A DNA stretch of 40,435 bases from the IMG/VR virus record IMGVR_UViG_3300036851_000074, positions 1 through 40,435 of that record. One strand, 5' to 3'. The DNA comes from a virus. Below the pieces are notes generated by a model. The model had not been told where the DNA came from and did no database searches. It saw nothing but the letters and a program-made list of their open reading frames with translations. The position numbers were made by a program, and so were the translations under genes. Below, piece by piece: positions 3,108-30,650 of the stretch. How positions within the stretch are numbered: position 1 is the stretch's first letter; every line of letters starts with the position of its first letter.

Positions 3108-3907
3108 CCGTAGCGATGGAACGCGCCGCCGAGGAGCGGAAAGCCGCTGCCGTGGCTCGCACTGCCGGCGCTGCGAAGGTCCACTACTACCGTTCCCGCC
3201 CTCCGCAGGGTGTCGAGTGGTCCGCCCCGGCGGGTGTGGCTCGGTCGCTGCCGTTTGCGGCGCAGATGCGCGCCAAGCTCGAGGAGCGCGACGGCCAGGA
3301 GCTGTACCACCTGAACGGCATCGCGTCGGTGACCGATACCCCGTACGACATGTACGACGACTTCGGCCCGTACGAGGAGATCGTCACCGCGTCCGCGTTC
3401 AGTGACACCCTGTCCGCTGACCCTGACGTGGCGTTCCTCGTGAACCACCGGGGCGTCACGATGGCGCGCACCACGAACAACACCCTGAAGCTCGCCCTCA
3501 CCGGCGAGGGGTTGCAGTCGGATGCGTGGCTGAACCCGAAGCGGCAGGACGTGAAGGATCTGGTCATCGCGATCGAGGACCGCAACATCGACCAGATGTC
3601 GTTCGCGTTCATGCTCGAAGAGGGCTGGTGGAACGATGACTTCTCCCAGTTCAAGATCACCAAGCTCGACATCCATCGCGGTGACGTGTCGGCCGTGAAT
3701 TACGGCGCGAACCCGTACACGTCGATCGCGGCCCGCTCGATGGAGATCCTCGACGACCTCGAGCACCTGCCCGCGGGTGCGAAGCGCGCTGCGCTCGCCC
3801 GCCTGGGCACCCAAGACTCGGCGCCAGTCACAGCGCCGCCGGCTCAGCCGGACCCTGCTGGCATGGATGTCTCGGCAGTGAATGCCTGGCTCCTCCAGCA
3901 CTCGTAA
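3104..3907 (+). CDS. Prohead maturation protease (S78 family)
   Basis: 267 residues starting within the portal stop (ATGA). The S78 core is visible: the catalytic His is in LVNHRG (H115) and the Ser in DQMSFAF (S166), with DAWLNPKRQDVKDLVIAI between them and a DIHRGDVSAVNYGANP segment after. The enzyme processes the capsid scaffold domain during head maturation. An N-terminal extension of about 65 charged residues precedes the domain and an Ala/Pro-rich tail follows. The order portal-protease-capsid is canonical. Confidence 0.92.
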   Translation: MTVAMERAAEERKAAAVARTAGAAKVHYYRSRPPQGVEWSAPAGVARSLPFAAQMRAKLEERDGQELYHLNGIASVTDTPYDMYDDFGPYEEIVTASAFSDTLSADPDVAFLVNHRGVTMARTTNNTLKLALTGEGLQSDAWLNPKRQDVKDLVIAIEDRNIDQMSFAFMLEEGWWNDDFSQFKITKLDIHRGDVSAVNYGANPYTSIAARSMEILDDLEHLPAGAKRAALARLGTQDSAPVTAPPAQPDPAGMDVSAVNAWLLQHS

Positions 3908-4025
3908 CACCCACCCCGGACTCGGCAGTCAGACCGAGACGGGCGCTCCGCTGCGAACCGGAAATCAGACCGGTGGCTGTCGGGTGCGAATGGAACCCCC
4001 ACTACGCCCGAAAGGCACCAACCCC

Positions 4026-5459
4026 ATGAAGTCATTCGATGAACTGATCCTGAGCGCCGAGGTGGCGCTGGATCAGGAGATCAAGCGGCGCGACAAGGCG
4101 CTCGCGACCGTGAAGATGATCCACGCCCGCGCGCAGCAGGAGGCCCGTACCGGCCTGACCGAGCACGAGTCCGGCGAGGTCAACTCGGCGATGGAGTCGC
4201 ACGCGAACGCGGAGCGCGCCGTCGCGGAGGCCCGCACCAACGTGGCCCAGCTGAAGGAGGCGAAGGCCCGCGAGGACGCCAACGACCAGGCCCTCGCGCA
4301 GCGCACCGCGGACCCGAAGACCGAGGCCGTGAAGCCCTCCTACGACCGGGTTGCCCGGATCGGCTCCGAGGAGCGCACCTACCACCGGGGCAACACCCAG
4401 GGTGGAGGCTCGTTCGTCCGCGACGTCGTCAACCAGTACCTGTACCGGGACCTGGAGGCGGAGCAGCGGCTGCTGCGGCATATGCAGGAGGAGCGGGTCG
4501 AGCGTGGCCAGTACCTCCAGCGGGCTGCGGGTGACGCGAACACCGGGGCGTTCTCCGGTCTGGTCGTGCCGCAGTACCTGACGGAGATGTACGCCCCCGC
4601 GGTTGCGGCGCGTCGCCCGTTCGCGGACGCGATGACGAAGCTGCCACTGCCGGCGTCGGGCATGACCGTGAACATCTCGCGGATCACCACGGCGACTTCG
4701 ACCGCGCTGCAGTCGTCGGAACTGGCTGCCGTGTCGGCGACCAGCATTGACGACACCCTGCTGACGGAGAACGTGCAGACCGCCGCCGGTCAGCAGTTGC
4801 TGTCGCGGCAGGCGCTCGACCGCGGTACGGGCATCGAGGACACCGTGATGATGGACCTGCAGCGCAGGTACGCCACCACGCTCGACTCGACGATCATCAA
4901 CCAGGCCACCACCGGCCTGCTGGCGGTCGCCACCGACGTCGCCTACACCGACGCCACCCCGACCGGCGCAGAGCTGTACCCGAAACTCCTCGCTGCGGCT
5001 TCCGGCTCCGAGGCCGCGCTGCTCGGGCAGGCCAACCCCGATGTTGTGGTCATGCACTCGCGGCGCTGGTACTGGCTGTCTTCGCAGATGACCAGCACCT
5101 GGCCGTTCATCGCCAACCAGGGCATCCCGACCCAGGCCGGTGGCGTCAGTCTCGCCGAGCGGTATGGCTCCGGCTTCCGGGGCATCCTGCCGAACGGCAT
5201 GGCGGTCATCACCGACAACAACATGCCGGTGAACCTCGGCGCGGGCACGAACGAGGACTCGGTTGTCGTGGCCCCGTCGGAGGAGTCCTTCCTGTGGGAG
5301 GACCCGAACGCGCCGCAGTTCATCCGGGCCGAGCAGCCCGCTGCGGCTCAGCTCGGTGTGCTCCTCGTTCTCTACGGCTACTTCGCGTACACGCTGCGGC
5401 GCTACTCGAACAGCCACCAGGAAGTCACGGGCACCGGCTTGGTCACGCCTCAGTTCTGA
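4026..5459 (+). CDS. Major capsid protein (HK97 fold)
   Basis: 477 residues from ATG 4026 (GAAAGG site 11 bases upstream). Residues 1 to about 130 are charged and coiled-coil-like, the scaffold delta domain removed by the upstream protease. The remainder matches an HK97-type shell protein (FSGLVVPQYL, PFADAMTKLPLP, VMHSRRWYWL, a C-terminal LLVLYGYFAYTLRRYSN). The frame stays open back to 3882, but that extension lacks a ribosome site and is Gly/Pro-rich, so it was not used. No separate scaffold gene is present. A strong hairpin follows the stop. Confidence 0.95.
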   Translation: MKSFDELILSAEVALDQEIKRRDKALATVKMIHARAQQEARTGLTEHESGEVNSAMESHANAERAVAEARTNVAQLKEAKAREDANDQALAQRTADPKTEAVKPSYDRVARIGSEERTYHRGNTQGGGSFVRDVVNQYLYRDLEAEQRLLRHMQEERVERGQYLQRAAGDANTGAFSGLVVPQYLTEMYAPAVAARRPFADAMTKLPLPASGMTVNISRITTATSTALQSSELAAVSATSIDDTLLTENVQTAAGQQLLSRQALDRGTGIEDTVMMDLQRRYATTLDSTIINQATTGLLAVATDVAYTDATPTGAELYPKLLAAASGSEAALLGQANPDVVVMHSRRWYWLSSQMTSTWPFIANQGIPTQAGGVSLAERYGSGFRGILPNGMAVITDNNMPVNLGAGTNEDSVVVAPSEESFLWEDPNAPQFIRAEQPAAAQLGVLLVLYGYFAYTLRRYSNSHQEVTGTGLVTPQF

Positions 5460-5470
5460 CCTTCTGAATC

Positions 5471-5503
5471 CATGTCCCCACCTTCTAGTAAGGTGGGGAC
5501 ATG
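5471..5503 (+). promoter_or_regulatory. Perfect 14-bp stem-loop covering HNH ribosome site and start
   Basis: The two 14-base arms (catgtccccacctt and aaggtggggacatg) are perfectly complementary around a five-base loop ctagt. The right arm contains the only ribosome site (AAGGTGG) and the ATG of the downstream HNH gene. On a transcript coming from the capsid gene this would fold and hide the start. It lacks a U-tract, so simple rho-independent termination is less likely, though it may protect the capsid mRNA 3' end. Confidence 0.85.
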
Positions 5504-6040
5504 GAGAGGCGAACCTGCAACCGGTGTGGAGAATCGAAGGCGGAACCCGAATGGGCACCGTCACAGTGGCGCAAGGGTGGATGGTGCAGAGCGTGCTACC
5601 GCGAGTGGCATCGCCAGCGCTACATTCCGACCACTGGAGCCACGGACGACGAGCGCCAGTGCGTCGTGTGCGGTCGGATGTACCAACCGAAGAACCGCCG
5701 CCCCAGCACTTACTGTTCGCAGGACTGCAAGACGCGCGAACGCAAAGAGAGCGGCCAGCAACGCGACCAGCACCTGCGCCGAAAGTACGGCATTAACGCC
5801 GTTGATTATGACCGGATCCTTGCCGAGCAAGGCGGCGGATGCGCGCTCTGTGGCGTGAAACCAGAGGACCTCACGCAGGGCCGATACCGGACCTACCTGC
5901 ATGTCGACCACTGCCACGAGACGGGTCGGGTTCGTGGGTTGCTGTGCCCTGAGCACAACCTGCTGCTGGGCCGATTCGGGGATTCCCCGGAGATGTTCCG
6001 AAAGATTCTTAAATACCTGGAGGCCGCTGCCTCCAAGTGA
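5501..6040 (+). CDS. HNH endonuclease, recombination endonuclease VII type
   Basis: 179 residues. The N-terminus has two zinc-binding regions (CNRCGESK with CRAC; CVVCGRMY with YCSQDC), then RRKYGINAVDYDRILAEQ and the endonuclease VII core: CALCG, HVDHCHETGRVRGLLCPEHN and LLGRFGD. This architecture is typical of free-standing phage homing endonucleases. It interrupts the late operon between capsid and tail-tube genes. The start must be ATG 5501 because the first Cys motif begins at residue 6, which places the ribosome site and start in a strong stem. Confidence 0.9.
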   Translation: MERRTCNRCGESKAEPEWAPSQWRKGGWCRACYREWHRQRYIPTTGATDDERQCVVCGRMYQPKNRRPSTYCSQDCKTRERKESGQQRDQHLRRKYGINAVDYDRILAEQGGGCALCGVKPEDLTQGRYRTYLHVDHCHETGRVRGLLCPEHNLLLGRFGDSPEMFRKILKYLEAAASK

Positions 6041-6055
6041 AATGGAGGCAGAGAT

Positions 6056-6349
6056 ATGGCCCAACGGGCTGATCTTCTCGCGGAGATCGACACCACGCTC
6101 GACGGCTCGGGTGACTACACCGGCGACTGGATCGATTCGAGTGAGATCTATTCGGTGCGGGTTCTCTACTCTGGCGTTGGTACGCAGGCTCTCATTCAGG
6201 AGTCGGCTAACCAGACCAACGTTCTGAGCACGTCCCTCCCAGTCGGGTTCGGCGAGGTGCCGATCACCGCACGATACTTCCGCTTCGCGGTCGACGGCGG
6301 TTCAGCTAACGCCACGCTTCGCGCAACGGTCCGAACGGTGGGATCGTAA
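6056..6349 (+). CDS. Hypothetical structural protein
   Basis: 97 residues, GGAGG ribosome site at about 6043, and a one-base overlap (TAATG) with the next gene. Predicted mostly beta: YSVRVLYSGVGTQ, PITARYFRFAVDGG and ATLRATVRTVG form strands. The pattern (difference from a reference, standard-error-like loops, ARYFRF) resembles small beta-sandwich decoration or neck proteins, but I do not recognise the family. It may have followed the capsid gene directly before the HNH gene arrived. Confidence 0.7.
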   Translation: MAQRADLLAEIDTTLDGSGDYTGDWIDSSEIYSVRVLYSGVGTQALIQESANQTNVLSTSLPVGFGEVPITARYFRFAVDGGSANATLRATVRTVGS

Positions 6350-22699: not shown

Positions 22700-22939
22700 G
22701 CCGCTCCACTGCCGCTCCAGATTGTGCAGGTTCCTTTCGGAACCGCCTGCGGAGTGGCGTTCTGAGCGTGAAATCGTGGGATTTGGCTGGGTGCCCCTGC
22801 GATCTGTCACTTTCCTGGCGTGGAAGTAAGAACCGCAGGTCAGGGGCTCTTATGGGTCCAATGTAGCACAAAACGGGTTCATTCGGGAATACCTGAGTCC
22901 GCCTGAGGTGGTTCCTCCTGCCGCTCCACTGCCGCTCCA
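22700..22939. other. Candidate attP with paired arm-type repeats
   Basis: The 20-base sequence gccgctccactgccgctcca occurs at 22700-22719 and again at 22920-22939, both direct. Each copy is itself two direct nine-base repeats (gccgctcca) two bases apart. Two pairs of direct repeats about 200 bases apart flanking an uncoded region beside the integrase gene match the arm-site layout of tyrosine-integrase attP sites. The right pair lies within the integrase 3' end. The core is not identified. Confidence 0.6.
22726..22750. repeat. Inverted repeat inside candidate attP
   Basis: ggttcc and ggaacc pair across tttc, and gcagg and cctgc extend the stem past a small asymmetry. It could be a core-like inverted pair for strand exchange, or an RNA stem between integrase and esterase genes. 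There is no T-tract on either strand. Confidence 0.45.
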
Positions 22940-24027
22940 AGAGCGTCACGCGCCTGGTCGAACCGTGCATCCGTCGGGTGGATGTACCGCTCCGTCGAAC
23001 GCAGCGACTTGTGACCCATCAGGGCACCGATCTGATTCGGTGCGACGTTCTTCTCCGCCAGCCACGACCCGTAGGTGTGGCGCAGGTCGTGCGGTGTCGG
23101 CTGAGGATCCGGCAGTTTCGCCCGCAGCAGTGCCGGCGCCCATACGCTGACGTGCCAGTGCTCGTACCACAACCGGCCACCAGAGTCCGCCGTGAACACC
23201 CATCTCTCGTCGGGAGCAGGGATCACGCGGGACAGTTTGACGACGAGATCGTCCGTCAACGGCACCAATCTCACACCGGAAGGTGTCTTCGGCTTCTTCT
23301 CGTCGCCCTTGCGGGGAAGTACCTTCACGATCTGGATCCTCTTCCGTAGTAGATCGACACGGAATCTCCGCAACCCCGCAGCCTCCTGCCACCTCAGTCC
23401 GCAGTACAACAGCATCTCCACGAACAACCGGTCCCTATCGGCGAACTGCTCGAGCAGCTGCGCTGCCTCTTTCCTGGTGAGTATCCGGTCAACGTGCGGT
23501 TCTGGTGGGGTAGCGACCACGTCGGCGGTCGGGTCGGCGGTCAACAGCTTGTGCTTCGCTGCGGCGCGCAGCATCTGCCCAAGCAACCGGAGCGAGCCGT
23601 TGACCGTCGGCAACCCAACCCCCTTATGTTCCAAATCACTGACCCACGCCTCGACGTCCCACGACTGGATCGCCGCGATCGGCCACGTCCCGAACTTCGG
23701 TTCGATGTGGTTCCGCCACCACCCGTCAGTGCGGCGCTGGGTGGCGATCTCGACCCTGCGGGTCTCCTCCCACTTGTCCCGCCATGCGGCGAGGGTCATC
23801 TTCCCGGCATGCGGATTCACCCACTCGCCGCGACGGATCTTGGCCTCCTCGTCCGCGGCCCACGTCTCCACGACCTTCTTCAGCGGGTCGGACTTGGAGA
23901 ACCGCTCCCCTGAAGGGTGGCGGATCGTGGCCTGCCACATCCCTTTCGGCTTCTCGCTCGCCGGCAACTCTCCCGCGCGTTGCCGGCGCTTCTGCTCAGG
24001 AGTGAGGAGTCTGCGGACGTGCGCCAT
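22879..24027 (-). CDS. Tyrosine integrase
   Basis: 382 residues from ATG 24027 (GAGGGG upstream; GTG 24030 adds one). An N-terminal arm-binding part (MWQATIRHPSGERFSK) and SAM-like core-binding part (MTLAAWRDKW to LLTADPTADV) precede the catalytic domain: Arg in CGLRWQEA (R212), Lys in KTPSGVR, HDLRH (H313, R316), His in MGHKS (H339) and Tyr in STERYIHP (Y348). All catalytic residues are present, so it is likely active. It reads toward attP and follows the repressor gene. Confidence 0.93.
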   Translation of the reverse strand: MAHVRRLLTPEQKRRQRAGELPASEKPKGMWQATIRHPSGERFSKSDPLKKVVETWAADEEAKIRRGEWVNPHAGKMTLAAWRDKWEETRRVEIATQRRTDGWWRNHIEPKFGTWPIAAIQSWDVEAWVSDLEHKGVGLPTVNGSLRLLGQMLRAAAKHKLLTADPTADVVATPPEPHVDRILTRKEAAQLLEQFADRDRLFVEMLLYCGLRWQEAAGLRRFRVDLLRKRIQIVKVLPRKGDEKKPKTPSGVRLVPLTDDLVVKLSRVIPAPDERWVFTADSGGRLWYEHWHVSVWAPALLRAKLPDPQPTPHDLRHTYGSWLAEKNVAPNQIGALMGHKSLRSTERYIHPTDARFDQARDALGAAVERQEEPPQADSGIPE

Positions 24028-24037
24028 CACGCACCCC

Positions 24038-29854: not shown

Positions 29855-30099
29855 GCGCCGAGTTGGTGGATCCGTTCGCCACCCAAGGCGCCATGACGCA
29901 GCAGCGCTACGAAGATCTGAAGGAGACGGCGAAGGCGCGCTTCCTTGAGGACAAGTCCTACATGCCAAGCCGCTTCTGGCACATGTTCGCTGCTCTGGGT
30001 GCGCGGGCACGCGGTGGCGATGAGTTCGCTGCGGAGGTTCTGGAGGAAGTAGCTCTGGCCAATGCAGGCGACGACTACGACCCGAATGGGGGTGTGTGA
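29851..30099 (+). CDS. Small hypothetical protein
   Basis: 82 residues, ATGA overlap. Helical pieces QQRYEDLKETAKARFLED and FAAEVLEEVALANAGDD, with a PSRFWHMFAALGARARGG segment. It follows the annealing-protein candidate and may be a partner. Function unknown. Confidence 0.6.
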   Translation: MSAELVDPFATQGAMTQQRYEDLKETAKARFLEDKSYMPSRFWHMFAALGARARGGDEFAAEVLEEVALANAGDDYDPNGGV

Positions 30100-30650
30100 T
30101 GCGCAGTGTTGGTTCCGTGATTGATCAGATGTCGGATCGTCTTAGGCGGCGCTTCTGGAGCTATGTGGCGATCGAATCTGAGGGTGAGTGCTGGGTATGG
30201 CAAGGCGTCTTGCAGAAGAACGGCTACGCGCGATTCCGGGTTAACGACAAGCACAAGTGCGCCCATCGTGTCGCCTACGAGATCAATGTTGGCCCAGTCC
30301 CAGAGGATCTCGTACTCGACCACCTGTGCCGCAACCGCGCTTGCGTTAATCCCTCCCATCTGGAGCCAGTCACGCCGCGCGAGAACACCCGTCGCGGCCT
30401 TGGGCCGGCAGCAGACAACGCCGCGAAGACGCATTGCCCGCAGGAGCATCCGTACGACGACGAGAACACCTACATCCAGCCAAAGACGGGCTACCGCTAC
30501 TGCCGCACCTGCCAGAGCGCCCAATCCGCCGCTAGCAGGGCCAGATCGAAGGCGAAGCGACAGGCCCAGACCGGGACCGAGGCAGACAACCAGCTCGCCA
30601 CCCAGACCCTGCGCAGCCTCGTTCAGGACGCGATGGAGGCCGCGTCATGA
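30099..30650 (+). CDS. HNH homing endonuclease (HNH_3 type)
   Basis: 183 residues from ATG 30099 (GTG 30096 possible). The N-terminus has [18 protein letters not shown]; the HNH core is [41 protein letters not shown]; then a zinc module [17 protein letters not shown] and YRYCRTC; and a basic tail. It sits seamlessly in the operon, with a TGATG start and ATGA end. A related gene is nested within the methyltransferase at 35681. Confidence 0.9.

Follow-up and report, generated by a model that had tools for sequence, protein, structure and literature searches.

The start codon of an Endonuclease VII/HNH gene lying behind the major capsid gene of this virus is enclosed in a long, perfect stem-loop in which a predicted leaderless promoter is nested, and it seems likely that stem and promoter together form the control module of this capsid-linked gene. 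Computation supports this reading through the stem itself, matched changes between its two arms in related loci, the position of a -10 element, the usual lack of a Shine-Dalgarno (SD) sequence and the absence of the arrangement from relatives that have no nuclease. The gene would be silenced on the capsid mRNA, transcribed from the inner promoter early in infection or in the prophage, translated without a leader and used for homing. The features concerned are listed below by their positions in the window, which is the whole stretch of 40,435 nucleotides that was analysed.

3882..5459, + strand: ORF of the major capsid (head) protein (phrog_2263, E 7e-47; start codon not settled)
5469..5484, + strand: 5' arm of the masking stem, the perfect complement of 5490-5505, also paired in the fold; lies outside the predicted leaderless transcript
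5483..5488, + strand: TTCTAG, a copy of the motif TTCTRR, which is found directly upstream of the -10 in 11/23 of the class A loci defined below
5485..5489, + strand: apical loop CTAGT, from the perfect-stem search and the fold
5489..5494, + strand: predicted -10 hexamer TAAGGT (TANNNT), 6 nt before the start codon, at a position conserved in relatives
5490..5505, + strand: 3' arm, spanning the SD-like AAGGTGG, the spacer, the start codon ATG and the next two bases
5501, + strand: predicted transcription start at the first base of the start codon, deduced from the -10 spacing
5501..6040, + strand: free-standing Endonuclease VII/HNH gene of 179 aa, from a Pfam match (start ATG at 5501-5503)
6044..6048, + strand: GGAGG, the SD of the next gene at 6056, just past the nuclease stop

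The 179-aa ORF matches Pfam PF02945 (Endonuclease_7) with an E-value of 1.4e-21 and 76.6 bits (curated cut-off 23.6). D136-H137 and N153, the residues of the HNH motif that are catalytic in HNH/EndoVII proteins, are invariant among the 11 nuclease sequences aligned. The ATG lies 41 nt past the stop of the capsid gene, which agrees with the first-pass annotation in placing an HNH gene there. This nuclease is probably a free-standing homing endonuclease, with the capsid gene on one side and the next virion gene on the other; in the closest nuclease-free relative (L003), a GAGGCAG similar to the SD of that next gene directly follows the capsid stop. The window also encodes an integrase (22879-24030), which means that the virus is probably temperate, and, in its right part, another HNH endonuclease from a different family (phrog_826; 30096-30650).

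The stem-loop occupies positions 5469-5505 and reads TCCATGTCCCCACCTT-CTAGT-AAGGTGGGGACATGGA, with 16 perfect base pairs and a loop of 5 nt. The first-pass annotation had already placed the start of the HNH gene in a perfect stem, of 14 bp; the stem is in fact two base pairs longer, and folding adds outer pairs beyond these 16. The region 5430-5560 folds at -61.9 kcal/mol, as against -43.8 +/- 4.1 for dinucleotide shuffles (z -4.4; 0/200 as good). For loops of 3-60 nt, the whole 40-kb window has no other perfect stem that reaches 16 bp, and 100 dinucleotide shuffles of the window yielded none. The stem region had no match in an Rfam search, nor did a DNA search of a phage collection return one. 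Elsewhere in the window, a + strand ORF contains two perfect inverted repeats of 13 bp next to each other (39627-39639/39646-39658 and 39663-39675/39688-39700).

Searches for the capsid and the nuclease in viral and genome contigs provided relatives with 224 distinct capsid 3' ends; an EndoVII gene follows the capsid gene in 31 of these and is absent from there in the other 193. Class A, as we call it, comprises the loci whose EndoVII start is at most 60 nt from the capsid stop (23 distinct loci, the window included, all of which were examined); the observed distances are 29-58 nt, for start codons that are predicted and, in several loci, chosen among two or three candidates. The nucleases of the other 8/31 are further from the capsid stop, starting some 70 nt or more past it, and, in the cases read, usually have a terminator-like hairpin upstream and an ordinary SD. 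Two isolated phages with distant capsid homologues, Bipper and prophiGD43A-5, have no nuclease behind the capsid gene, and no cultured host system was therefore found. One class A nuclease (L089:3949-4516) has an in-frame stop, by which it may be decaying, and a very long stem with its 3' arm in codons 8-14.

The order found in most class A loci is capsid stop, 5' arm and -10, with this hexamer in the apical loop or bordering it, and with a 3' arm that spans the start codon or flanks it. The arms differ strongly in sequence and length from one locus to another, and their complementarity is kept. This is shown by the pairing of each leader with its own start region, which averages -25.2 kcal/mol compared to -16.3 kcal/mol for partners mismatched between loci: none of 200,000 permutations was as good (the same after removal of three close kin), and 16/23 loci are individually significant against shuffled leaders (combined p 4e-20), with the reservation that class A loci are related, so that permutation and binomial figures overstate their independence. 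The seven loci without individual significance are L038, L164, L081, L046, L049, L275 and L089. The start codon is paired with upstream sequence at a probability of at least 0.8 in 9/23 loci and at least 0.5 in 15/23, a measure that falls short of arm pairing, given that the start of several loci is enclosed by the stem and not contained in it; in others the stem flanks or encloses the start codon.

The clearest single events come from near relatives. L060 has CCCATC/GATGGG with an ATG start where L082 has CCCACC/GGTGGG with a GTG start, so that the 5' arm has changed along with the start codon. Another matched change distinguishes the CTGATCC/GGATCAG of L060 from the CGGATCC/GGATCCG of its near relative L088. 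Oppositions of G with T outnumber those of A with C in the arms (15 vs 7), a bias leaning towards selection on the sense RNA. Compensating changes maintain the mask across relatives; the first-pass annotation had held that stem variation without them would speak against a mask.

What the stem conserves around the start codon is not an SD. The first-pass annotation had placed one in the stem, and AAGGTGG is indeed there in the window (anti-SD energy -7.6), but this is an exception within class A: the mean anti-SD energy is -1.8 kcal/mol for the 23 class A loci versus -6.0 kcal/mol for the 142 first genes after the capsid gene in nuclease-free relatives, and most of the 23 have either a weak match or none to a consensus SD located about 8 nt upstream of the AUG. 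A conserved SD was consequently rejected as the masked element, and the feature that the family does conserve is TANNNT.

In 20/23 class A loci, this hexamer is separated from the start codon by 6 nt (17 loci) or 7 nt (3 loci), the arrangement by which actinobacterial leaderless genes are recognized (TANNNT about 6-7 nt before the start), and the remaining three have NANNNT at 6 nt (GACAAT, CAAAAT and GATGAT). Its place past the 5' arm is a conserved one. By background, TANNNT would occur in class A loci at a rate of 0.0009 per position, and no comparable peak exists at any other upstream position in the 18 loci profiled by position. Behind the capsid gene, none of the 193 relatives without EndoVII has an ORF whose RTG start is preceded at 6-7 nt by TANNNT, and this arrangement is likewise absent from 103 SD-led control genes. 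The first-pass suggestion of a promoter-like element inside the stem-loop is supported, and the element is a putative promoter. An extended -10 (TGN) is present in 11/23 class A loci, and no conserved -35 is seen in their column table. The hexamer of the window, TAAGGT, has only the TANNNT core, lacks TGN and lies mostly inside the 3' arm.

According to a study of Mycobacterium tuberculosis (PMC3898074), TANNNT -10 elements there lie 7-12 bp upstream of transcription starts, with no conserved -35 and with the TGN extension linked to stronger promoters; for Cluster O mycobacteriophages, SigA-like promoters giving leaderless transcripts are predicted (PMC4351075). With the M. tuberculosis spacing, an actinobacterial rule that may not be the one followed by the host of this virus, the transcript of the window is predicted to begin at the start codon. 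A scan with the sigma-70 consensus returned no promoter, as expected for promoters that have TANNNT only. The likeness of the motif to promoters of a host primary sigma factor makes expression early in infection or at the prophage stage plausible. TTCTRR is repeated in the window at the capsid stop (5454-5459), just after it (5463-5468) and beside the -10 (5483-5488), and repeats are found in class A too; the nuclease may recognize this element, or it may belong to an extended promoter motif. EndoVII genes that are not linked to a capsid gene can also look leaderless (20/96 in GC-rich loci), and six loci on actinobacterial genome or viral contigs (L318, L326, L327, L329, L330 and L335) have an EndoVII gene away from this capsid with TANNNT 6 nt before its start.

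These elements would provide the nuclease gene with two kinds of transcript. Transcripts that read through from the capsid gene have both arms, and in them the nuclease start codon and its surroundings would be locked in the stem, which would block fresh initiation as well as re-initiation by ribosomes that have just completed the capsid protein. For a gene that has no SD, ribosomes re-initiating from a capsid stop located 30-40 nt upstream may pose the chief risk. From the promoter inside the stem-loop, whose -10 is in the loop or at its edge and 6 nt before the start, a second mRNA would be made that begins at the start codon; this RNA would be devoid of the 5' arm, could not form the stem and would be translated without an SD. 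The first-pass annotation had the HNH gene silent on the late capsid mRNA: the masking of its start stands, as predicted for any transcript reading through from the capsid gene, and silencing is what we infer from it.

A stem behind a capsid gene could also act mainly on the capsid transcript, as a captured terminator, a processing site or a 3'-end stabiliser, with the masking of the start as a by-product. Among 79 capsid loci, many nuclease-free relatives do have a strong GC-rich hairpin, of variable sequence, 5-40 nt past the capsid stop, and a perfect stem of 16 bp is a possible substrate for RNase III, which could cut it. We nevertheless consider this unlikely: there is no U run after position 5505 and the terminator scan did not list the stem; L055, L060, L088, L049, L357 and L275 have a separate GC-rich hairpin past the nuclease stop; and the nuclease-free L354, whose last 300 nt of capsid gene are 96% identical to those of the nuclease-bearing L162, has in place of the nuclease stem a terminator-like hairpin that is unrelated to it. 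The separate and unrelated hairpins led us to reject the earlier proposal that the stem was the original capsid terminator, captured by the insertion. In addition, the 3' arm tracks the start region locus by locus, for which a terminator would have no need.

The 16-bp repeat could alternatively be a DNA operator covering the -10 and the start codon, through which the nuclease or another protein would repress the gene, much as I-TevI does through an operator that resembles its homing site and overlies its own promoter (PMC2988022). The repeat brackets the -10, and TTCTRR recurs at the capsid stop as well as beside the -10. However, operators of homologous proteins usually keep their sequence, whereas here the arms vary strongly and it is complementarity that is kept, and the bulges and G-U oppositions fit RNA better, so that an operator appears quite improbable. 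It is barely credible that the nuclease is simply translated from the read-through mRNA by way of the AAGGTGG of the window, whose anti-SD energy is favourable, with the stem there by chance or neutral, as the shuffled windows contained no such stem, most relatives have no SD and the stems are maintained across them.

The masking stem seems to descend mostly with the nuclease and to keep changing as it does so, since 20/22 class A proteins fall on one side of a supported branch of the nuclease tree, together with two SD-type proteins (class A L355 and L045, with long branches, fall outside). The L162/L354 pair provides a presence/absence polymorphism of the nuclease at a fixed site in otherwise similar loci. 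In L275 (3890-4830), the nuclease gene has a second copy of the capsid 3' end (30/35 nt, through the capsid stop) where it ends, and the insertion therefore probably targets this part of the capsid gene.

Hairpin-regulated homing endonucleases are known from phages T4 (I-TevI, I-TevII, I-TevIII and SegB) and Aeh1 (MobE) (PMC2988022). There, a stable hairpin sequesters the endonuclease start on longer upstream transcripts, and a gene-proximal promoter gives a transcript too short to form it (PMC2988022); both elements are predicted here, and by computation a stable RNA structure does hide the translation start on the read-through mRNA. In the T4 intron endonucleases, the AUG is preceded at about 8 nt by a consensus SD (PMC2988022), which most class A loci lack, and the class A module, which would work like those of T4, is not counted as one of them because a conserved SD is missing. 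The promoter predicted here is moreover of the actinobacterial TANNNT kind and lies in the stem-loop, the message would be leaderless and the nuclease is of the EndoVII type. Timing would differ as well: for I-TevI, it is a phage late promoter that frees a gene masked in early and middle mRNA (PMC2988022), whereas here the late capsid message would be the masked one. The first-pass annotation, in which an early promoter frees the T4 ribosome site, had this the wrong way round.

Other likenesses are found among actinobacteria and their phages. In Cluster O mycobacteriophages and M. tuberculosis, the -10 sets the transcription start at the start codon, as predicted here, and the extracts of both papers (PMC4351075, PMC3898074), unlike the present case, describe no stem masking that codon. 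The ShiLan element is a hidden actinophage HNH homing gene for which leaderless initiation has also been proposed; it lies out of frame within a methylase gene, however, and no masking hairpin or promoter is reported for it (PMC11855218). Cluster J mycobacteriophages share with our loci free-standing HNH genes resembling T4 gp49 and the invasion of a capsid gene by a mobile element, the LittleE intron, but no regulatory stem or promoter is described, such words being absent from the text (PMC3706429). A literature search, itself incomplete, found no precedent for a leaderless promoter combined with a start-masking stem. We give about even chances to the fuller proposal that actinophages with a capsid-linked EndoVII homing gene have an undescribed, evolving module, in which a leaderless promoter is nested in a stem kept compensated across a diverse clade and the timing of T4 is inverted, with expression by a host sigma factor (early or in the lysogen) and silence on the late capsid message.

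If the nested stem and promoter do control the nuclease, the masking of homing endonuclease starts known from T4-like phages would extend to phages of actinobacteria, in a version matching the use of leaderless mRNA by their hosts. Such genes could be searched for by a simple rule, i.e. a stem around the start codon, a -10 in its loop and a spacing of 6 nt. It would also become testable why selfish nucleases located behind highly expressed genes need to be silent late in infection.
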